The notes beneath the pieces were generated by a model. That model made no database searches and was not told where the DNA came from. It saw nothing but the letters and a program-made list of their open reading frames with translations. A stretch of DNA of 64,000 nucleotides. Origin: Tsukamurella asaccharolytica (GTDB lineage: Bacteria; Actinomycetota; Actinomycetes; Mycobacteriales; Mycobacteriaceae). Position numbers and translations under genes: made by a program. This document shows positions 4,368 to 50,719 of the stretch, one piece after another. Where the stretch lies: positions 372,001-436,000 of the forward strand of contig NZ_VIGW01000002.1 in the NCBI RefSeq assembly GCF_007858435.1. The letters run 5' to 3'. The stretch's first letter is position 1. The number at the start of each line of letters is the position of its first letter.

Positions 4368-6245
<1,878 letters not shown>

Positions 6246-6383
6246 GTCCCGCAACTCCGGGCGACTCCGGGGCGCAGCCGGAGCGGTACACCGAGACCGC
6301 GGCGATCCTGCAGGACGCCGTTACGCGGTCCGGTCGCGGCCGCTTCGGCTGCGTCTCGCGTCGTCGACGACGACGTGAGGTAG

Positions 6384-7190
6384 CTACCGCTTAAGGCCGT
6401 GCTTGCGGGCCACGATGCTGGAGACGACCTCGACCGGCACCAGCCGCTTGAGCAGGAAGACCAGCGGCGCATTGCTACCCACCGCGTAGAACTCGCGCGG
6501 CTTGTCGGCCTCGATCGCCTTGACGATCACCTCCGCCACCTGCGTCGGCGTGATACCCCCGCGCTCGTTGGCGTCGAGCTTCTCGATCATCGTGTCGAAG
6601 TCGGTGCGGTACACGGAGTCCTCGGCGACATATTTGGTGCGCCGCTCACCGATCCCGGTGGCGATGGAACCCGGCTCCACCGTGGAGACCCATACCCCGA
6701 AGGGCGAGAGTTCCTGCCGCGCCGCGGAGGCGAAACCTTTGAGCGCGGCCTTGGCGGCGACATACGAGCCACGATACGCGAGCGGGAAGCTGGCGAGCAT
6801 CGAGCCGACCATGATCACCCGACCGTAGCCCCGCTCCCGCATCGACGGCAGCAGGCGCTGAGTGAGCTGTACCGCGCCGAAGACGTTGGTCTGGAAGAGT
6901 CGGTCGACTGCGTCCGCAGGGAGCTCCTCGAGCGGGCCGGACTGGCTCTCTCCGGCGTTGTTGACGACGACGTCGACGGCACCGGCCGCGGTCGCACACG
7001 CGGCGACGGAGTCGCGGTCCGCGAGGTCCAGCGCCAGGTACTCCACGCCGGGGATCCGCTTCTCGGCGGCGATGGTCCCGGGATCGCGACTGGTACCGAG
7101 GACCCGATAGCCCTTCTGCGCCAACAGCTTAGCCGTCTCGTAGCCGATGCCGGAGGTCGCTCCGGTCACCAGTGCCGTGCGTGCGCTCAT
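6384..7190 (-). CDS. Short-chain dehydrogenase/reductase
   Basis: NAD(P)-dependent oxidoreductase of the classical SDR type, 268 residues from MSARTALV. It shows the TGATSGIG cofactor loop at about 8-15, NNAG near 80, and the YxxxK catalytic pair in SYVAAKAA near 145. The ATG start overlaps the stop codon of the upstream FAD dehydrogenase by four bases (ATGA), so the two are translationally coupled. A longer in-frame reading to 7265 would run into that gene and is not used. Substrate unknown. Confidence 0.9.
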   Translation of the reverse strand: MSARTALVTGATSGIGYETAKLLAQKGYRVLGTSRDPGTIAAEKRIPGVEYLALDLADRDSVAACATAAGAVDVVVNNAGESQSGPLEELPADAVDRLFQTNVFGAVQLTQRLLPSMRERGYGRVIMVGSMLASFPLAYRGSYVAAKAALKGFASAARQELSPFGVWVSTVEPGSIATGIGERRTKYVAEDSVYRTDFDTMIEKLDANERGGITPTQVAEVIVKAIEADKPREFYAVGSNAPLVFLLKRLVPVEVVSSIVARKHGLKR

Positions 7191-8884
7191 GCTCGTGTAC
7201 CTCCGATTCGATCGCCCGTCGCGGCGGCCGCGGCGCGGCCCGCCGTCATCCCCGAGAATATGCACCCGCCGAGGAACGTACCCTCCAGCGCGTTGTAGCC
7301 GTGCACGCCGCCGCCGCCGAAGCCGGCCACCTCGCCCGCCGCGTACAGACCGCCGACGGGCGTACCGTCGGCCCCGAGGACCCGGGCCGAGAGATCGGTC
7401 TCGAGCCCGCCGAGGGTCTTGCGGGACAGGATGTTCAGACGGACCGCGATGAGCGGGCCGTGCGCCGGGTCCAAGATGCGGTGGGGCTTGGCGACGCGCA
7501 CCACCTTGTCGCCTAGGTAGTTCCGCGCGTTGTGCATCGCCTGAAGCTGGGCGTCCTTGCTGAAGGCGTTGGCGGTCTCCCGGTCACGGGCCTCGATCTG
7601 GGTGCGCAGGTGGTCGAGGTCGACGTGCCCGCCGCGGCCGATCCGGTTCATCCCCGCGACCAGTTCCTCGAGCGTGTCGGCGACGACGAAGTCCTCGCCG
7701 TGCTGCTTGAACGCCTCGACCGGGCCCGGCGCACCCTTCGACTTCACGCGTCCGAGCGCGAGTTTCAGGTCCTTCTCCGTGATGTCCGGGTTCTGCTCCG
7801 AGCCGGAGAGCGCGAACTCCTTCTCGATGATCGTCTCGGTGAGTACGAACCACGAGTAGTCGAAGCCGGTCTCGAGGATGGCCTTCATCGTCGAATTCGT
7901 GTCGAAGCCGGGGAAGTTCGGGGCCGCGAAGCGGTTGCCGTTCGCGTCGAACCACAGCGACGACGGGCCCGGAATGATCCGGATCGCGTGGTCGGGCCAG
8001 ATCGGGTCCCAGTTATGGATGCCCTCGGTGTAGGCCCACACCCGGTCGCGGTTCACGATGTTCGCGCCCGCCGACTCCGAGATCGCGAGCATGCGGCCGT
8101 CCACGTGCGCGGGGACGCCGGCGATCATGTGCTGCGGGAACGGACCGAGCCGCTCGGTGGGCCAGTACTGCCGCATGAGCTCGAAGTTGTGGCCGATGCC
8201 GCCGGAGGTCACGAGGACCGTCGGCGCACGGAACTCGAACTCGCCTTGCACATCGCGAGGGCTCGCGATGCCGCGTTCGAGCTCGGTCGGCTCGAGGACT
8301 GCGCCGCGGACTCCGACCACGGCACCGTCGTCGCCGGTGACGAGCTCGTCGACGCGGTGGCGGAAGGCGAAACGCACCAGGCCCTGAGCCTCCGCGCGCT
8401 CGACGGGCTCGCGGAAGACGCGAACGACCTCGGGGCCGGTGCCCCAGGTGAGGTGGAAGCGGGGGACGGAGTTGCCGTGACCGTCGGCCGCGCCGCCGCC
8501 CCGCTCGGCCCAGCCGACGACGGGCGTGAACCCGAGCCCGAGGCGCCGCAGGTAGTCGCGCTTGCGGTGGGTGGCGAACTCGACGTAGGCGCGGGCCCAC
8601 TGCCGCGGCCAATGATCCTGGTCCTCCCGGTCGAAGCCTGCGGAGCCCGTCCAGTCCTGCCAGGCCAGCTCGAAGGAGTCCTTGATACCCAGGCGCCGCT
8701 GCTCCGGGGAGTCCACCAGAAACAGGCCGCCGAGGCTCCAGAATGCCTGGCCGCCGAGGTTGTTGCGGTTCCCCTGGTCGAGGATCAGGACCGTGCGCCC
8801 CGCCCGCGACAGCTCGTACGCGGCCACCAGGCCCGCGAGTCCCGCGCCGACGACGATCGCGTCCAGCGTGCCGTGTTCACTCAT
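7187..8884 (-). CDS. FAD-binding dehydrogenase (3-ketosteroid dehydrogenase-like family)
   Basis: A 565-residue flavoprotein. The N-terminus has the Rossmann FAD motif VVGAGLAGLVAAYELS, followed by a conserved GGQAFWSLGG segment, and the C-terminus has the second FAD-contact GLYAAGEVAGFGGGG. Length and motifs match, from memory, the mycobacterial Rv0785 group of fumarate-reductase/KstD-like proteins. Substrate is not known. It is the first gene of a two-gene operon with the downstream SDR; both could act on one hydroxy or keto substrate, which is inference. Confidence 0.88.
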   Translation of the reverse strand: MSEHGTLDAIVVGAGLAGLVAAYELSRAGRTVLILDQGNRNNLGGQAFWSLGGLFLVDSPEQRRLGIKDSFELAWQDWTGSAGFDREDQDHWPRQWARAYVEFATHRKRDYLRRLGLGFTPVVGWAERGGGAADGHGNSVPRFHLTWGTGPEVVRVFREPVERAEAQGLVRFAFRHRVDELVTGDDGAVVGVRGAVLEPTELERGIASPRDVQGEFEFRAPTVLVTSGGIGHNFELMRQYWPTERLGPFPQHMIAGVPAHVDGRMLAISESAGANIVNRDRVWAYTEGIHNWDPIWPDHAIRIIPGPSSLWFDANGNRFAAPNFPGFDTNSTMKAILETGFDYSWFVLTETIIEKEFALSGSEQNPDITEKDLKLALGRVKSKGAPGPVEAFKQHGEDFVVADTLEELVAGMNRIGRGGHVDLDHLRTQIEARDRETANAFSKDAQLQAMHNARNYLGDKVVRVAKPHRILDPAHGPLIAVRLNILSRKTLGGLETDLSARVLGADGTPVGGLYAAGEVAGFGGGGVHGYNALEGTFLGGCIFSGMTAGRAAAAATGDRIGGTRA

Positions 8885-8903
8885 GTGCCCACCTTACGTC
8901 CCG

Positions 8904-9794
8904 TCAACTCACCGCATGGACCTCCTCGTCGAGCGCGCGGAGCACCGCAGCGACGGCCGGCCGGCGCTCGGCGCCGGGCCGGGTCGCCACCTCGAGGATG
9001 CGGGCGGCGAGGACTCCGACGATCTCGAGGCCCCGGACGCCGGGGTGGGTCACTGCGTGGCGCGCGACGAGCGCCACCCCCAGCCCGGCCGCCACCATGG
9101 CTTGGATCGTGTGGAAGTCGTTGATCCGCTGCACCACTCGCGGCTGCACGCCGGTGATCGTAGCCAGGGAGCGGAGCACGTCGTCGACAGGGAAGCCGTC
9201 GCGCACGCTGATCCACTCGAGGTCCGCGAGTTGCGTCGCGTCGACCCGTCCGGCCGCGGCGAGCGGGTGATCGACCGGGACGACCAGGTCGATCGGCTCG
9301 CGCATGAGGATGCGGCAGGCGATGCGGGGACCGCCCAGCGGGGTCGCCCGCTCATCGCGGTGCGCCACCACGACGTCCGCGTCCGCGAGCATGGCCGGCA
9401 GCTCCGTCCCCGGGAGGTCCGCGTCCGCGGCGGCCACCTGGATTCCCGCTGCGGCGGTGCGGCGCAGCACGCCGGGAAGCAGGAGTTCGGCCGCCGACGG
9501 GAAGAGCGTCAGCCGGACCACGCCGACCGGCGTCGAACGGTAGCGGTCCATCTCCGCGCGTGCCCGGTCGAGTTCGCCCAGCACGGATTCCGCCCGGACG
9601 ACCAGCGCCAGCCCGGCGGCGGTGAGCCGCACCCGCCGGCCGTCGGGCTCGAGCAGGTCCACCCCCGCCTCCCGCGCGAGCACCTTGAGCTGCTGGGACA
9701 CCGCCGACGGCGTCATGTCCATCGCGCGCGCAGTCGCGCCGACGGTCCCCCGGTCGGCGAGCTCGCGCAGAATTCGCAGCCGGTGGACATCCAT
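8904..9794 (-). CDS. LysR-family transcriptional regulator
   Basis: A 296-residue regulator. The N-terminal winged helix-turn-helix (residues 1-60) includes GTVGATARAMDMTPSAVSQQ; the rest is a periplasmic-binding-fold effector domain. It is transcribed away from an EamA transporter gene 72 bases off, the usual arrangement for a LysR protein that controls its neighbour. The start codon overlaps a perfect palindrome, ATGTAG-N5-CTACAT, which fits the T-N11-A LysR box and suggests autoregulation. Confidence 0.92.
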   Translation of the reverse strand: MDVHRLRILRELADRGTVGATARAMDMTPSAVSQQLKVLAREAGVDLLEPDGRRVRLTAAGLALVVRAESVLGELDRARAEMDRYRSTPVGVVRLTLFPSAAELLLPGVLRRTAAAGIQVAAADADLPGTELPAMLADADVVVAHRDERATPLGGPRIACRILMREPIDLVVPVDHPLAAAGRVDATQLADLEWISVRDGFPVDDVLRSLATITGVQPRVVQRINDFHTIQAMVAAGLGVALVARHAVTHPGVRGLEIVGVLAARILEVATRPGAERRPAVAAVLRALDEEVHAVS

Positions 9795-30774: not shown

Positions 30775-30860
30775 GGAGGATTCGCCTAGTGGCCTATGGC
30801 GCTCGCCTGGAACGCGGGTTGGGTTAATAGCCCTCAGGGGTTCAAATCCCCTATCCTCCG
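30775..30860 (+). tRNA. tRNA-Ser (anticodon GGA)
   Basis: 86 bases with acceptor GGAGGAT/ATCCTCC, a CTGGAAC anticodon loop giving GGA, a long variable arm, and GGGGTTCAAATCCCC T-arm. CCA is not encoded. A TACGAT -10 box (30762-30767) lies seven bases upstream. It diverges from the SRP RNA gene. Confidence 0.95.
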
Positions 30861-30925
30861 CCGCGGAACGGCCCGTGACCAGCACTGTTGGTCGCGGGCC
30901 GGTCCTCTATCCAGGGGCGCGACTG

Positions 30926-43011: not shown

Positions 43012-43869
43012 GTGACAGCTGGACGGTACGCGCCGAGCCCGTCGGGCGATCTGCACGTGGGCAACCTGCGCACCGCCCTGCTCGCGTGGCTCTTCGCCCG
43101 CTCGACGGGGCGGGACTTCCTGCTGCGCGTCGAGGACCTGGACACCGGGCGCACGGCCGACGGTGCCGAGGCGCGCCAGCTCGCCGACCTGGCCGCGCTC
43201 GGCCTTCACTGGGACGGGGACGTGGTGCGGCAGTCGTCCCGCACCGACCTGTACGAAGCGGCGCTGGGGCGTCTCGACGTCTACGAGTGTTATTGCACGC
43301 GCCGCGAGATCCTCGCGGCCCCGTCGGCGCCGCACGCACCGGACGGTGCGTACCCCGGCACGTGTCGCAACCTCACGGAGGGCGAACGGGAGGCCCGGCG
43401 GCGGAATCGGCCTGCGGCGGTGCGCCTGCGGTCGACGGTCTCCTCGTTCACCGTCACGGATCTGCTGCACGGCGAATACACCGGCACGGTCGATGACGTC
43501 GTCCTCCGGCGCGGCGACGGGACGTACGCCTACAACCTGGCCGTCGTGGTGGACGACGCGGCACAGGGTGTCGACCAGGTGGTGCGCGGCGACGACCTGC
43601 TCTCCTCCGCGCCACGCCAGGCGTACTTGACGAGCCTCCTCGGCGGTACGCCTCCGACCTACGCCCACGTGCCGATGGTGCTGGGACCCAGCGGCATCCG
43701 GCTCGCCAAGCGCGACGGTGCCGTCACCCTCGCGGAGCGTGGTGGACCCGCGGTGGTGCTCCCGGAGATCGCGGCGAGCCTAGGGCTGCGCGGTCGCACC
43801 CCGCACGAGATGCTCGACGGGTTCGACCCCGCCCGACTCCCCCGGAACCCCTGGACGCTACCGCTCTGA
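43012..43869 (+). CDS. gluQ: Glutamyl-Q tRNA(Asp) synthetase
   Basis: Truncated glutamyl-tRNA synthetase paralogue that attaches glutamate to queuosine at position 34 of tRNA-Asp. 285 residues, no anticodon-binding domain. HIGH-type motif [12 protein letters not shown] near 7, zinc-type cysteines in YECYCTRRE and PGTCRNL, KMSKS-like [10 protein letters not shown] near 230. GTG start after a TAAGCT -10 box with six bases between, so likely leaderless. Its substrate requires queuosine, which the Tgt domain 2 kb downstream would start to install. Confidence 0.93.
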
Positions 43870-44133: not shown

Positions 44134-45123
44134 TCAAGATCCGGCCACGGAGCGCGCGGAGCTGCGGCCGACCTCGCTGCCGTGGAAGCGCTCGCGATAG
44201 GCCGTCGGAGCGAGCCCGGTCTGCCGCTTGAAGTGATACCGCAGCGTCTCCTCGGCGTCGAAGCCCGCGCGGCCCGTGATCGCGGTGACGGAGTCGTTCG
44301 TGGTCTCCAACAGCCGCATAGCGCGGTAGACGCGTTGGCGCATCAGCCATTCCAGCGGAGCGACGCCGGTGTACCGCCGGAACCGGCGGTGTAGAGTGCG
44401 GCGGGAGACGCCCGCGCGGGCCGCCATGTCATCGAGGCCCTTGACGCCGCCGATGCCGTGGGCGAGGCCCTGCAGGAAGTCGGCGAAGCGCTTGTCCATA
44501 TCGGGCCGCAGGGTATCGATGTTGACGAACTGCGACTGGTCGCCATCGCGGTGCGGCGCCACCACGAGGCGGCGTGCCACCTCGTTCGCAGTGTCGGCGC
44601 CGTGATCGGTGCGGATCAGATGCAGACACAGGTCGAGGCCCGCCGCCGAGCCCGCGCCGGTGAGCACTGGACCGTCCTGGATGAACAGTTCCGACGGCGT
44701 GACGTGCACCCGCGGGAAGCGGTACTGCAGCAGGCCCGCGTGCCGCCAGTGGGTCGTCGCCCGCCGGTCGTCCAGCAAGCCCGCCGCGGCCAGCGCGAAG
44801 GCGCCCGTGCAGATGGAGACGATCCGCGCACCGTTCGCCGCGGCCGCACGCAGCGGCTCGTGCCACTCCGGGTTCGAGTCGGTCCGCGGGTCCGACACGG
44901 CCGAGACGACGACGGTGTCCGCGTCGGCGATCTCGTCGAGGCCGTAGCCGGGCACCAGCACCGCGCCCCCGAGCGTCCGCACCCCGTCGGCCGGACCGCA
45001 CCCGCGCACGTCGTACCCGAGCGACGGGAGGTCCTTCCAGGCGAAGCTCAGCGCCTCGACCACGATGCCGTACTCGAGCATCGTCATCCCGTCGCAGACG
45101 GGCAGGGCGACGACGTGAGCCAT
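44134..45123 (-). CDS. GlxA-family AraC-type regulator (DJ-1/PfpI plus HTH)
   Basis: 329 residues. The N-terminal DJ-1/PfpI-like domain (to about 190) holds the cysteine elbow VSICTGAFALAAAG near 105; the C-terminal AraC double helix-turn-helix includes DDMAARAGVSRRTLHRRFRRYTG and SVTAITGRAGFDAEETLRYHF. Such proteins sense small molecules through the PfpI-like domain. Target genes unknown. Confidence 0.92.
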   Translation of the reverse strand: MAHVVALPVCDGMTMLEYGIVVEALSFAWKDLPSLGYDVRGCGPADGVRTLGGAVLVPGYGLDEIADADTVVVSAVSDPRTDSNPEWHEPLRAAAANGARIVSICTGAFALAAAGLLDDRRATTHWRHAGLLQYRFPRVHVTPSELFIQDGPVLTGAGSAAGLDLCLHLIRTDHGADTANEVARRLVVAPHRDGDQSQFVNIDTLRPDMDKRFADFLQGLAHGIGGVKGLDDMAARAGVSRRTLHRRFRRYTGVAPLEWLMRQRVYRAMRLLETTNDSVTAITGRAGFDAEETLRYHFKRQTGLAPTAYRERFHGSEVGRSSARSVAGS

Positions 45124-45157: not shown

Positions 45158-48100
45158 TCAGTCGGACTTGGCGAGGTGCTGCTGGGTGCCTTTGTAGTAG
45201 CGCCCCAGGAACTCCTCCTTGAACTCCCAGTACGTCCCGTCGAGCATCGACTGCCGGATCTTCGCGACCAGGGAGACGATGAACTGCTCGTTGTGGATCG
45301 TCGCCAGCGTGGCCGCGAGGCTCTCCTTCGCCTTGAACAGGTGATGGATGTACGCGCGGGTGTACTGCGAGGTGAAGTTCTCCGTCTCGGGATCGAGCGG
45401 GCGGAAGTCCGTCTTGAACCGCGAGTTGGTCACGTTGTAGCGACCGTCGAGGGAGTAGATCGCGCCGTTGCGGGCCACGCGCGACGGCGAAACGCAGTCG
45501 AAGGTGTCGATGCCCTGCTCGACCGCGGCGAAGATGTCGTCCGGCTCGGAGATCCCGAGCAGGTGCTTCGGCTTGCCCTCCTCGAGCTCCTCGTTGACCC
45601 AGCGCACGATGGTCGACAGGTTCGCCTTCTCCAGCGCGCCGCCGATACCGTAGCCGCCGAACCCGAGGCCGCCGGCGAGCCGGTCCTCCTCGCTCAGCGC
45701 CCGCAGGTCGCGGGCCGCCTTGCGGCGCAGATCCTCGTACTGCGCACCCTGCACCACGCCCCAGAGGGAGACCGCATCGTTCCGCTGCGCCGTGAGCCAG
45801 TTGTGCTCCGACAGGCAGCGCCGCGCCCAGAGGCGGGTCCGTTCGAGCGATTCCACCTGGTACGCACGGGTGTTGTGCAGCGTGGTCAGCTCGTCGAAGG
45901 CGAAGATCACGTCGGCGCCCAGCTGATGCTGGATCTGCATCGACCGTTCCGGCGTGAACCGGTGCTCGGTGCCGTCGAGGTGGCTCAGGAAGGTCACGCC
46001 GTCGTCGTCCACCCGGGAGAGGCGGTCCTTGCCCTCGGCGATCGCGTCGTCGCCCTGCAGCTCCTCACCGCCGGTCATGTCGATGACCTTCTTGAAGCCC
46101 GAGCCGAGCGACATGACCTGGAAGCCGCCGGAATCGGTGAAGGTCGGGCCGTCCCAGTTCATGAACGCCCCCAGGCCGCCGGCCTGCTCCACGATCTCCG
46201 GGCCCGGCTGCAGGTACAGGTGGTAGGCGTTCGCCAGGATCGCCTGCGCGCCGAGCTCCGAGACCGCCTCGGGCAGCACCGTCTTGACCGTCCCCTTGGT
46301 GCCGACGGGGATGAAGGCCGGCGTGAGCATCTCGCCGTGCGGCGTGAGAAGGCGGCCGGCGCGGCCGAGCGGACCGTTCGGCCCCTCGAGACGACCCTCG
46401 ATCTCGAAGCGGGTGGGGTCGCTGATGTGCTCGCTCTGCAGCCGGGTTCGACTGGCCATGGACCGGTAATCGGAACGCAGTGCGCTGAGCTCCGCCGCGA
46501 TCGCCCTGTTCTGCTCCCGCAGCTGGGCGATCTCGTCCCGGGTGCGGTCCCGCTGGCGGATGGGACCGGTCGTCGTCTGGTCCGGGCGCGGGACGCCCGG
46601 CCGCGCGACGGGGTACTCGCCGGTGTCCGCGACACCGTCCGCCGCGGTCTCCGATGCCGCCGCGGCGACCTGCGCCGCCTCGACCTGCTCCGTGTCGGCG
46701 TGCACCGGTGCTTGCTCGGTCACGTGCTCGTCCGCCGTGCCGGAGGGCAGCGGCACGGGCACCGTCGGGGCGGCGGTAGGAAGCTCGGCACCGTGCGCAG
46801 CACCGTTGGTGGTGTCGCCGGCGTGGCCGTTGAGGCCGACGGCCTGCTCGACCCGCGCCGGGCCGCGCGCGGGGACGTCGGTCGCGCCGACGGCCACCAA
46901 CTGCTCCGTGGGCACCGGGATCTCGGCGGTGACCGGCGAGGGGATCTCGGCGGTGTCGGTCTTCGTGTCGCCGCGGCCGAGCTGCTTGACGAGTGCCTCG
47001 CCCTCGATGTCGACGTTCGGCAGGATCTTGTCGAGCCACTTCGGCAGCCACCAGGCCGACGCGCCGAGCAGGGTCATCACCGACGGGATGATCACCATCC
47101 GCACGACGAAGGCGTCCAGCAGCACGGCGGCGGCGAGACCGAAGCCGATCTCCTTGATGAACACCTGGTCGTTGAGGATGAACGAGGCGAAGACCGAGAT
47201 CATGATGATCGCCGCCGCGGTCACGACGCGGGCGCCGTACTGCACGCCCGTCACCACGGACTGTGTGGCGTCGCCGGTGTGCACGAACTCCTCGCGCATG
47301 CGGGAGACGAGGAAGACCTGGTAGTCCATCGCGAGGCCGAAGACGATGCCGATCATGAAGATCGGCAGGAACGAGACCAGCGGCTGCGTGTTGTCGATGA
47401 GGCCGAGGGCGCCGTCGCTGAAGATCGCGGACGTAACGCCGAACGTCGCGACGACGGACAGCAGGAAGCCCAGGACGGCGGTGAGCGGCACCAGGATCGA
47501 GCGGAAGGCGATGAGCAGCAGCAGGAACGCCAGGCCCACCACGATCGCCAGGTAGATCCACAGGGCGTCGCCGAGTTTCTCCGAGATGTCCATCTCGATG
47601 GCGGTGGCGCCCGCGACGCCGAGGTCGACGCCGAGCCGGGCCTTCGTCCCGCCGTCGCCGTTGGCCATGGCGCGGAGCTTGGTGACCAGCGTCTTGGTGT
47701 CGTCGTCATTGGGCCCGGACTTGGGCGTCACCACGATGGTGGCGGCCTTGTTCTCCGGCGCGAGCTGGGTGAGCTGGGCGTTCGCGATCAGCGGCGCGAC
47801 GGCCTGGTTGCTGTTGAGCTGGTCGACGATCTGCTTGTAGGCGGCGAGGCGCTGGTTCGGCTGCGCCTCGGCACCGTCGAGCGCGACGAGGAGGGTGCCG
47901 TTGGCGCCCTTGCCCCAGCCGTCTGCGATGAGGTCGTAGGCCTGCCGCTCCGACGTGCTCTTCTCGCTCATTCCCGAGCTCGGCAGCGCGGTCTTCATGT
48001 CCTTCATCGGGATCGCGAGGATGCCGAGCACCGCGACACCCGCGACGAGGGTGACAACGGGAACCTTCTTGACCAGGTTGGCCCAGCGCAGGCCGTTGGC

Positions 48101-49348
48101 GACGCGACCGTCGCCCTGGTCGGTGTCCGGCGGGTGCAGGCCCTTGACCCGCCCGGCGAAGACCTTGGTGCCGAACAGGCCCAGCAGGGCCGGAAGCAGG
48201 GTCAGCGCGACGAGGACCGCGATGAGGACGCCCCACGCGGCGGCGACGCCCATCTGACCGAGGAAGTCCATGCCGATGAAGGCGAGCGCGGCGAGCGCAA
48301 TGATCACCGTCAGGCCGGCGAAGACCACCGCGGTGCCGGCGGTGCCGACGGCGATGCCCGCCGCCTCGGCCCGCTGTTCCTTGGTCGAGGCGCCGAGGCG
48401 CCGCAGTTCGTGCCGGTACCGGGACACGATGAACAGGGCGTAGTCGATGGAGACCGCCAGGCCGATCATCGAGGTCAGGACGGTCGGGAACGTACCGAGC
48501 TCGATGAAGCGGGTGGCGAGCAGGACGCCACCGAGGGCGATGCCGACGGCGATGATCGCGTTGATCAGCGGCATGCCCCAGGCGACGAGCGAGGCGAAGG
48601 TGATGATCAGCACGATCGCGGCGACGATCATGCCGATGATCTCGCTGGTCAAGCCGATGTCGGCGGCACCGCGAGCGGCGGAACCGTCCGCCTCGACCTG
48701 CAGGGTTCCGTTCGACGCGGCCTCGCCGGCCTCGCGGGCCTTCGTGATGTCCTCGGAGACGGTGCTCGGGAGTTCGGTGACCTTGCCGATGAAGTTCACC
48801 GTGATCCTGGCGGTCTTGCCATCCGGGCTCACCGACGAGGTCGCCGCCGCGTCGGCGGTCTTCTGCGCCGGCGTCTTGGTCGACGCGATGTCCCGGCCCT
48901 GCGCCGTGACCGCCTCGAGCTTCGATCGCTGCTCCGGAGTGAGCGCGCTCGGGTCGAGCTCGCCCGTCGGGTTGTGCAGGAGTTCCGGGTCCTGGACCAC
49001 GGAGACCTTCCGGCCGTCCTCGTCCTTGGTGAGGTTCTTCAGGTCGGCGATGGTGCGGTCGATGCCCGCGGCAGCCGCGGGATCGGTGAGCCTGCCGTCC
49101 TTGGTGTGGAAGACGATGGTCGCCGAGGCGGTGGTGAACGGGTCGCCGCCGCTGTCGCCGAAGTTCTGGGAGACGATGTCGGTCGCCTTCGCCGAGGGCA
49201 GGCCCGGCAGGGAGAAGTTGTCGACCGTGGGTTTGCTGAGCGCCGCACCACCCGCGAGCATGCCGACGAAGATCAGCAGCCACGCGGCGATGACTTTGAA
49301 GCGATTGAGGTAGGCGAACCTCCCCAGGCGGTACAGGAACAATGCCAT
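45158..49348 (-). CDS. MmpL-family transporter fused in frame to tRNA-guanine transglycosylase
   Basis: One open frame of 1396 codons. Residues 1-790: RND/MmpL transporter with N-terminal LNRFKVIAAWLLIFVGML, two periplasmic loops, and the proton-relay Asp-Tyr pairs SIDYALF and AMDYQVF. Residues 790-960: Ala/Pro/Glu-rich linker with a short coiled coil (DEIAQLREQNRAIAAEL). From about 964 (MASRTRLQ, possible internal ATG at 46459): Tgt with FTDSGGFQVMSLG and nucleophile region DTFDCVSPSRVARNG. The usual CxCxxC zinc ligands are replaced (PETENFTS) while the later His is kept. No stop or frame change separates the parts. GGAG eight bases before the ATG at 49348. Confidence 0.88.
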   Translation of the reverse strand: MALFLYRLGRFAYLNRFKVIAAWLLIFVGMLAGGAALSKPTVDNFSLPGLPSAKATDIVSQNFGDSGGDPFTTASATIVFHTKDGRLTDPAAAAGIDRTIADLKNLTKDEDGRKVSVVQDPELLHNPTGELDPSALTPEQRSKLEAVTAQGRDIASTKTPAQKTADAAATSSVSPDGKTARITVNFIGKVTELPSTVSEDITKAREAGEAASNGTLQVEADGSAARGAADIGLTSEIIGMIVAAIVLIITFASLVAWGMPLINAIIAVGIALGGVLLATRFIELGTFPTVLTSMIGLAVSIDYALFIVSRYRHELRRLGASTKEQRAEAAGIAVGTAGTAVVFAGLTVIIALAALAFIGMDFLGQMGVAAAWGVLIAVLVALTLLPALLGLFGTKVFAGRVKGLHPPDTDQGDGRVANGLRWANLVKKVPVVTLVAGVAVLGILAIPMKDMKTALPSSGMSEKSTSERQAYDLIADGWGKGANGTLLVALDGAEAQPNQRLAAYKQIVDQLNSNQAVAPLIANAQLTQLAPENKAATIVVTPKSGPNDDDTKTLVTKLRAMANGDGGTKARLGVDLGVAGATAIEMDISEKLGDALWIYLAIVVGLAFLLLLIAFRSILVPLTAVLGFLLSVVATFGVTSAIFSDGALGLIDNTQPLVSFLPIFMIGIVFGLAMDYQVFLVSRMREEFVHTGDATQSVVTGVQYGARVVTAAAIIMISVFASFILNDQVFIKEIGFGLAAAVLLDAFVVRMVIIPSVMTLLGASAWWLPKWLDKILPNVDIEGEALVKQLGRGDTKTDTAEIPSPVTAEIPVPTEQLVAVGATDVPARGPARVEQAVGLNGHAGDTTNGAAHGAELPTAAPTVPVPLPSGTADEHVTEQAPVHADTEQVEAAQVAAAASETAADGVADTGEYPVARPGVPRPDQTTTGPIRQRDRTRDEIAQLREQNRAIAAELSALRSDYRSMASRTRLQSEHISDPTRFEIEGRLEGPNGPLGRAGRLLTPHGEMLTPAFIPVGTKGTVKTVLPEAVSELGAQAILANAYHLYLQPGPEIVEQAGGLGAFMNWDGPTFTDSGGFQVMSLGSGFKKVIDMTGGEELQGDDAIAEGKDRLSRVDDDGVTFLSHLDGTEHRFTPERSMQIQHQLGADVIFAFDELTTLHNTRAYQVESLERTRLWARRCLSEHNWLTAQRNDAVSLWGVVQGAQYEDLRRKAARDLRALSEEDRLAGGLGFGGYGIGGALEKANLSTIVRWVNEELEEGKPKHLLGISEPDDIFAAVEQGIDTFDCVSPSRVARNGAIYSLDGRYNVTNSRFKTDFRPLDPETENFTSQYTRAYIHHLFKAKESLAATLATIHNEQFIVSLVAKIRQSMLDGTYWEFKEEFLGRYYKGTQQHLAKSD

Positions 49349-49984: not shown

Positions 49985-50650
49985 ATGAAGAAACTGCTGG
50001 TCGGCACGCTGATCGTGCTGGTCTTCCTCGCCTACTCTCTCCCGCCGTATCTCACGGGCGGCAGTCGCGTGCCCCTCGACGATCAACCGGGCTGGTACTA
50101 CGGGCTGCTCGTCGGGCACATCCTGCTCGGGTCGGTGGCGATGCTCGCCGGGCTGGTGCAGTTGGGCCGACGCTGGTTCGCGAAGTACCACTGGATCGCC
50201 GGCCGGATCTACGTCGCGTGCGCCCTGCCCGTGGGACTCGCGGCGATCGCGATCGGCACGGTCACGCCGTTCGGTCCGCTCAACGCCGCCTCCAATGTCA
50301 CGCTGGGCTCGCTGATGCTGCTGTTCACGGCGCTCGGCGTCCGCGCGATCGTCGGCGGCGACGTGGCCGCCCACCGGCGCTGGATGCTGCGCAGCGCGGC
50401 GCTGATGTATTCGGTGATCGTCAACCGCGTCCTGGGGCCGGTGTCGTTCCTCGTGCTCGACGCCGCCGGCGCACCGGAGTCCTTCATGGACGCCTGGGGG
50501 CCGGCGATCGTCGCCTGGCCGAGCTGGCTCATCGCGATCGGCCTCTGCGAGTGGTGGCTGCGGCGCAGCGCGCACAGTCCCCGGAACGGGAGAAACCCCC
50601 TCCGAACGGAATCGGAGAGGGTTTCCCTCAGCGGTGGCGGGGGGATTTGA
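49985..50650 (+). CDS. DUF2306-type membrane protein
   Basis: 221 residues, about six membrane helices. YHWIAGRIYVACALPVGLAA and DVAAHRRWMLRSAALM, with a His that could bind haem, are typical of the DUF2306 family. Function unknown. TAGCGT lies seven bases before the ATG. The last 20 codons (from NGRNPLR) read through a terminator hairpin and into the end of the opposing tRNA-Ser gene. Confidence 0.82.
   Translation: MKKLLVGTLIVLVFLAYSLPPYLTGGSRVPLDDQPGWYYGLLVGHILLGSVAMLAGLVQLGRRWFAKYHWIAGRIYVACALPVGLAAIAIGTVTPFGPLNAASNVTLGSLMLLFTALGVRAIVGGDVAAHRRWMLRSAALMYSVIVNRVLGPVSFLVLDAAGAPESFMDAWGPAIVAWPSWLIAIGLCEWWLRRSAHSPRNGRNPLRTESERVSLSGGGGI
50592..50625 (-). terminator. Terminator of tRNA-Ser(CGA)
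   Basis: Stem GAAACCC..TCCGA / TCGGA..GGGTTTC with loop ACGGAA. On the minus strand it follows the tRNA 3' end closely; it lies inside the end of the DUF2306 gene on the other strand. Confidence 0.75.
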
Positions 50651-50719
50651 ACCCCCGGTACGGGGTTACCGCACACAACATTTCGAGTGTTGCACCTTCG
50701 GCCGCTCGGACACGCCACC
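50632..50719 (-). tRNA. tRNA-Ser (anticodon CGA)
   Basis: 88 bases; acceptor GGTGGCG/CGCCACC, anticodon loop CTCGAAA giving CGA, long variable arm TGTGCGGTAACCCCGTAC, T-arm GGGGGTTCAAATCCCCC. CCA not encoded. Confidence 0.95.

Follow-up and report, generated by a model that had tools for sequence, protein, structure and literature searches.

A conserved fusion of an MMPL transporter with tRNA-guanine transglycosylase in Tsukamurella, and related, apparently inactive tails on other transporters

A 64,000-nucleotide stretch of the Tsukamurella asaccharolytica genome (contig NZ_VIGW01000002.1, positions 372,001 to 436,000; hereafter the window) encodes, in one open reading frame of 1396 codons, an MMPL-family transporter joined through a variable linker and a predicted coiled coil to a tRNA-guanine transglycosylase (Tgt) domain. 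The reading that we consider probable is that this protein arose by loss of a stop codon and is the sole working Tgt, tethered to the membrane, and that its coil–Tgt module was copied, decayed and was kept for dimerisation. The stop between neighbouring mmpL and tgt genes would have been lost in an ancestor of Tsukamurella, giving a single membrane protein whose cytosolic tail, held at the membrane by the MmpL part, would be the cell’s only working Tgt and would exchange guanine 34 of GUN tRNAs for salvaged queuine. A coiled coil would have evolved within the linker, and the module could then have been copied onto a second MmpL and three major facilitator superfamily (MFS) proteins of efflux type. 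On these hosts the active site would have decayed; the fold and coil would have been retained, most likely for dimerisation, and the module may pair with itself or with the active Tgt.

The frame runs on the minus strand from an ATG at 49348, preceded by GGAG, to a TGA at 45158. It is open throughout, in agreement with the initial annotation, which had noted that neither a stop codon nor a frame change separates the two parts; because no stop lies in the frame, the leaky read-through unit considered there is excluded. Pfam detected MMPL in two stretches (best 48–430; PF03176, 296.2 bits vs. a cut-off of 20.5) and TGT at residues 995–1385 (E 2.8e-113), with no third domain at E 0.001, and the NCBIfam Tgt equivalog TIGR00430 is passed with 376.5 bits vs. 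a cut-off of 306.75. Assignment of the transporter part to MmpL3, the trehalose monomycolate exporter, was rejected at 214.4 bits vs. an equivalog cut-off of 1400. The GC content at codon position 3 (GC3) is 0.93 in the linker, 0.88 in the coil and 0.95 in both flanking domains.

Comparison of the domain junction with orthologues, which the initial annotation had put forward as a check, revealed an uninterrupted frame across the entire fusion in 14 of the 16 genus genomes, i.e., the window’s own and 13 others at 70–92% identity. The fusion is therefore not a chance event or a base-calling error, and the 13 further open orthologues refute the idea of a sequencing error hiding a stop; an assembly or base-calling artefact, for which nothing was found in the window copy, can be practically dismissed. 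Full-length fusions, 77–90% identical in the best segment, are also present in five named Tsukamurella records, which are probably assemblies already among the 16. Of the two remaining genomes, G011 holds the fusion as fragments only. In G009 the linker is shortened and the two halves, MmpL and Tgt, occupy different frames, which weighs against our reading; with a listed completeness of 83%, this genome probably contains an assembly error there.

Selection was estimated as the ratio of non-synonymous to synonymous substitution rates (dN/dS) in nine species pairs of the fusion, which share species and are not independent. The ratios were 0.01–0.08 for Tgt, 0–0.11 for the coil, 0.11–0.25 for MmpL and 0.19–0.53 for the linker; outside the window’s genome (G000) each frame was read from its earliest potential start, so that MmpL values from pairs lacking G000 cover some probably untranslated codons. 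The fused Tgt is far more constrained than the transporter part.

These values also bear on whether the frame yields two products, with an internal start or proteolysis freeing a soluble Tgt and the fused frame lacking functional meaning. The internal ATG at 46459 named in the initial annotation is present, as Met964, and recurs in 13 of the 14 orthologues examined, being missing in G010; no Shine-Dalgarno-like 4-mer lies just 5' of it in any of the 13. A GTG at 46915 is common to 10 of the 14, six of which carry such a 4-mer (the window does not), so some soluble coil–Tgt could be made, a point against a strictly membrane-bound enzyme. The fast-evolving linker could also be cut, and the differing frames of G009 would fit separate products. 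Against this, the coil 5' of the ATG is nearly invariant, and among the start codons found in at least 7 of the 14 orthologues none is present in all 14. Two genes sharing a frame are not supported, because the coil is about as constrained as the enzyme and the internal ATG has no ribosome-binding site and is missing once; taken together, we regard two products as unlikely.

The Tgt domain was next compared with solved TGT and with free Tgt proteins. The catalytic list, which we take to be Asp102, Asp156, Gln203, Asp280, Arg286 and Arg289, has its equivalents at all six positions in 15/15 type-A rows (the fused Tgt of the window-type MmpL) and in 96/96 free rows, among which some loci occur twice; of the free-tgt loci, 20 were hand-picked and 30 best-scoring, and counts over them do not describe a random sample. 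The nine positions checked, both catalytic aspartates included, are identical in all 15 type-A rows. Asp1152 corresponds to Asp156, which serves in base recognition. The alignment thus bears out the earlier statement that the active-site Asp segments and the His remain. Asp102 and Asp280 are given as the active residues of TGT in the available text of PMC6165067.

The absence of the CxCxxC zinc ligands, with PETENFTS in their place, was also confirmed; in the fused Tgt the zinc-site cysteines are replaced and the His is kept. Among the free rows, duplicates included, 71/96 have at least three Cys at the zinc site and 25/96 have fewer, so the site is no family-defining trait in this group. Zinc-less and zinc-bearing rows are split by one branch with a support of 97 in a 45-row tree from which the zinc columns were left out. 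Zinc-less free Tgts occur in several related genera, e.g., L086, L087, L089 and L195 (L denotes loci), with several sequence patterns at the site. As the loss is common to the fused Tgt and its free relatives, it would most simply be older than the fusion. Zinc loss as a product of the fusion was rejected, free Tgts of sister genera lacking the zinc cysteines too. By the same sharing and the one-branch split, the altered site is a mark neither of horizontal acquisition, which the initial annotation had considered, nor of the fusion, and a recent horizontal origin of the Tgt was rejected, its nearest free relatives lying in the same family and being up to 77% identical. Metal independence at the lost site is plausible. 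No literature on zinc with tRNA-guanine transglycosylase in Actinobacteria was found, in a literature set of partial coverage.

Gene order in relatives suggests how the fusion arose. In Williamsia, Hoyosella, Lolliginicoccus and further relatives, an MmpL gene lies 5' of a separate tgt on the same strand; an upstream MmpL was found in 8/50 free-tgt loci, for which 0.9–1.5 kb of upstream sequence was covered. The mmpL stop and the earliest potential tgt start are 17 nt apart in L192 (genome G027), 33 in L191, 80 in L130 and more than 600 in L143 and L194. A quick, long-branched tree places the fused MmpL together with six MmpL neighbours of free tgt (support 81). A single branch (100/99) separates the 16 fused Tgt rows from 17 free rows in a tree built from 33 chosen rows, six of which were flagged for unusual letter composition, and the split recurs with a support of 99 in a tree of all 72 rows, which, like the MmpL tree, is quick and has long branches. 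The free tgt of G027 stands next to the fused Tgts with a support of 97 in the tree without decayed copies, a placement not repeated in the tree with them. From these data we infer that loss of the stop between adjacent mmpL and tgt genes is the simplest origin of the fusion.

The setting of the fusion points to queuosine. GluQRS, encoded nearby, acts on Q34 of tRNA-Asp and so needs queuosine in tRNA-Asp; it was found with TIGR03838 over its cut-off in 16/16 genus genomes vs. 3/14 control genomes. The standard queuosine-precursor transporter QPTR/Vut_1 is likewise present in all 16, and QueA was detected in none of them. The presence of QPTR and GluQRS and the absence of QueA is, at the level of gene content, the profile of queuine salvage, and on this ground the fusion is most likely a working queuine-inserting enzyme, tethered to the membrane. 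A weak match to the QueC model (20.7–22.4 bits, cut-off 22) in 15/16 genomes, over the cut-off in 14, speaks against salvage; it covers 53–56 of 210 model positions inside long frames, and we take it to be another enzyme with a similar loop. In a family survey, Tgt was present in 142 of 151 genomes. Outside the genus it was found in 132 of 141, each with a single match, and all 10 Tsukamurella genomes drawn had Tgt, with 2–5 matches each, some being pieces of one copy. A module-alignment search of the 16 genus genomes found no other Tgt with an intact active site, with G011 so fragmented that one could have been missed there. Among the Tgts found in the genus, the fusion alone could serve queuine salvage, and its Tgt would thus act on tRNA. 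The tethering of a tRNA-modifying enzyme, one of the options in the initial annotation, stands as the best reading of the fusion through this indirect support; the attachment itself we infer from the architecture.

In all, five different transporters carry the coil–Tgt module; two are MmpL and three are MFS proteins. The second MmpL (type B) carries it in 8/16 genomes, where it is cut by contig ends in G008 and interrupted in G015. In the latter (L045, G015:C3:3861500-3878000), the type-B frame is broken at about 5916–9668 by ~3.7 kb of other sequence. The first MFS host (C1) is associated with the module in 15/16 genomes, the host being lost in G009; the second (C2) occurs in G006 only, and the third (C3) in G010 and also in G011, where host and coil are visible before the contig end. 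The C1 hosts are 66–92% identical to the C1 host of the window’s genome, and C1, C2 and C3 are mutually 25–30% alike. The type-B MmpL lies on a branch far from the type-A MmpL (quick tree, long branches), and in G012 it lacks the module (L044, G012:C78:147500-158000) and is followed by a frame judged by eye to be MerR-like. Because of this distance and the bare G012 protein, the module was more likely attached to the type-B MmpL than inherited with the whole gene. On the same quick tree, a duplication of the entire type-A fusion was rejected as the source of type B.

According to annotation, the MFS hosts would be of efflux type: C1 and C3 pass a DHA2 efflux model; C2 scores too low for this model and gives sub-cut-off matches to LfrA-type efflux models. 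The regulator genes adjoining the hosts were a MarR at C1 in G000, a TetR at C2 in G006 and a TetR at C3 in G010.

None of the 25 type-B and type-C rows retains the active-site set. Gln203 is lost in 25/25 and Asp156 in 24/25; Asp280 is replaced by Glu in 7/8 type-B rows and kept in 17/17 type-C rows. The module copies away from the type-A MmpL are thus apparently inactive. Still, the Tgt part of these copies shows dN/dS values of 0.10–0.20 in nine close C1 pairs and 0.19–0.31 in four B pairs, with linkers reaching up to ~1; the decayed copies compared (B and C1) are under purifying selection. The coil, with the a/d positions I/L-L/I-N-L/I/M-L-L-Y, matched the pattern in 38/40 module rows, with one more recognised by eye and one cut, and by alignment it is nearly invariant. 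An Asn at an ‘a’ position is typical of parallel two-stranded coils. Across 111 active-type rows, 173 positions reach at least 95% agreement; both B and C retain 48 of them. These include Tyr330 and His333, which belong, with Trp326 and Phe92, to the dimer hot spot of Z. mobilis TGT described in the available text of PMC5395182. In G009 (L035, G009:C1:406000-416000), the C1 MFS is missing between a MarR-like gene and the coil, and the coil and decayed Tgt form their own open frame at 4478–5794. As the module was kept open after host loss, a role apart from the host is suggested, by one genome of doubtful quality. The apparently inactive tails on several other transporters suggest that the Tgt tail gained a second, structural job, and the extra copies may be dimerisation modules.

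Several observations weigh against this account of the extra copies. Types B and C both retain only two of the four hot-spot residues: Trp326, already replaced by Tyr in the active Tgts of this set, is lost from both groups, with Phe as the usual residue in C, and Phe92 is kept in the three B rows and in 2/6 C rows shown. Constraint is looser (dN/dS 0.16–0.43) in more distant C1 control pairs with the coil included (n = 4) than in the close pairs, and two C1–C2 pairs, with Tgt values of 0.33 and 0.34, were left out of the ranges given above. The lone module of G009 has ratios of 0.26–0.38 against other species, like the controls.

The same data were set against a neutral fusion, i.e., one protein doing the usual Tgt work with no gain from membrane attachment. 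Neighbouring genes can fuse by stop loss, and the linker is the least constrained part of the protein. Such a history would leave unexplained why the coil is kept and why the module sits on other transporters, maintained there without the active-site set; we give it a small but real chance.

A functional alternative is that the MmpL part imports a queuosine precursor and passes it to the fused Tgt, following the logic of Quaiyum et al. 2024, who, in the available text (PMC11130926), used such fusions as a pointer to queuosine-precursor transporters. The same text describes Tgt fused to or neighbouring transporters, including a known QPTR–Tgt fusion, and mmpL–tgt neighbours occur in several genera. 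However, QPTR/Vut_1 is kept in all 16 genomes, the DHA2 efflux model is passed by C1 and C3 but not by C2, a MarR or TetR gene adjoins each MFS host in the single genome inspected per host, and the Tgt domains of the MFS hosts lack the active-site residues. In addition, the text reports that a Corynebacterium propinquum MmpL moved no preQ1 in E. coli, with the authors’ caveat on expression. We consider import by the MmpL part improbable, and favour the membrane-tethered Tgt whose module was reused.

The bare MMPL–Tgt fusion is real, conserved and already known. The initial annotation knew of no such protein, and it is in print for Tsukamurella: the text of PMC11130926 available to us describes fusions of Tgt to QPTR and, unique to Tsukamurella species, to MFS and MMPL transporters, naming Tpau_4044 (D5UNC0) as MMPL–Tgt and Tpau_0550 (D5USC3) as MFS–Tgt. 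Genus and both architectures are the same here, the window gene being the MMPL type by domain content rather than by accession alignment. Dead active sites, the coil, additional hosts and an origin by stop loss go unmentioned in that portion of the paper, and none of these was found in print in the partially covered literature, supplements excluded. Within the same coverage, the four fusion accessions appeared only in PMC11130926, a name search for Tsukamurella with tRNA-guanine transglycosylase returned nothing, and no work on QTRT1/QTRT2 at the mitochondrial outer membrane was found. The likely origin, the zinc correction, the sole-enzyme argument and the spread of decayed coil–Tgt modules seem to be new.

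Compared with bacterial Tgt (TIGR00430; Z. mobilis TGT structures), the window protein exceeds the family cut-off and keeps the catalytic and tRNA-contact residues checked, but lacks the zinc cysteines and is joined to a transporter. Its transporter part matches the MMPL family model in two stretches and differs from MmpL3, falling far below that cut-off. In the eukaryotic QTRT1/QTRT2 pair, one catalytic subunit is combined with a dead one whose nucleophile Asp is Glu in QTRT2 (PMC6165067, available text). The type-B rows are similar in their Asp280-to-Glu change (7/8), as are the B and C rows in their loss of catalytic residues. Unlike in QTRT1/QTRT2, the dead copies here are transporter tails whose pairing would be an extension of this likeness, and type C keeps the Asp (17/17).

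Table 1. Coordinates of the fusion gene, its parts and the nearby GluQRS gene in the window.
Feature	Position	Strand	Evidence or remark
Fusion gene: MMPL transporter + linker + coiled coil + Tgt, 1396 aa	45158..49348	minus	single open frame
MMPL-family transporter part, residues 1-795	46964..49348	minus	Pfam PF03176; not MmpL3
Variable linker, residues 796-935	46544..46963	minus	GC3 0.93; dN/dS 0.19-0.53, 9 species pairs
Predicted coiled coil, residues 936-976	46421..46543	minus	heptad pattern I-L-N-I-L-L-Y, Asn at ‘a’ position
Tgt domain, residues 977-1396	45161..46420	minus	catalytic residues kept
Internal ATG, Met964, without Shine-Dalgarno-like sequence	46457..46459	minus	
Asp1072 = Asp102 of Z. 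mobilis TGT	46133..46135	minus	alignment to solved TGT; kept in 15/15 type-A rows
Asp1152 = Asp156 of Z. mobilis TGT	45893..45895	minus	alignment to solved TGT
Asp1284 = Asp280 of Z. mobilis TGT, nucleophile	45497..45499	minus	alignment to solved TGT
Place of lost zinc site, ETENFTS	45368..45388	minus	alignment
GluQRS, tRNA glutamyl-Q(34) synthetase, near fusion	43012..43869	plus	NF004315 311 bits vs 250; TIGR03838 300 vs 276.7

Directly 3' of the fusion, between it and GluQRS, the window encodes an AraC-type regulator with a DJ-1/PfpI domain (44134–45123, minus strand). Two tRNA-Ser genes are located at 50631–50719 (minus) and 30775–30862 (plus), with the anticodons CGA and GGA.

Beyond the fusion itself, we tentatively propose, at low confidence and by analogy, that Tsukamurella has made Tgt a reusable part of its transporters: transporter molecules might be paired through the coil and the Tgt fold, and dead tails might dimerise with the one active MmpL–Tgt, tying the queuosine status of tRNA to the assembly or control of export pumps. 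If true, the dead tails on drug- and lipid-type exporters would be a bacterial parallel of QTRT1/QTRT2. Because 25 of the 40 fused Tgt rows examined lack the active-site set and MFS proteins, apparently of efflux type, make up three of the five hosts, ‘fused to Tgt’ should not be equated with ‘transports a queuosine precursor’. In Tsukamurella, a widespread enzyme would thus exist only as a membrane-bound tail, with decayed copies apparently reused on other transporters, and both the insertion of queuosine from the membrane and the use of a dead enzyme fold as a transporter module can now be tested.

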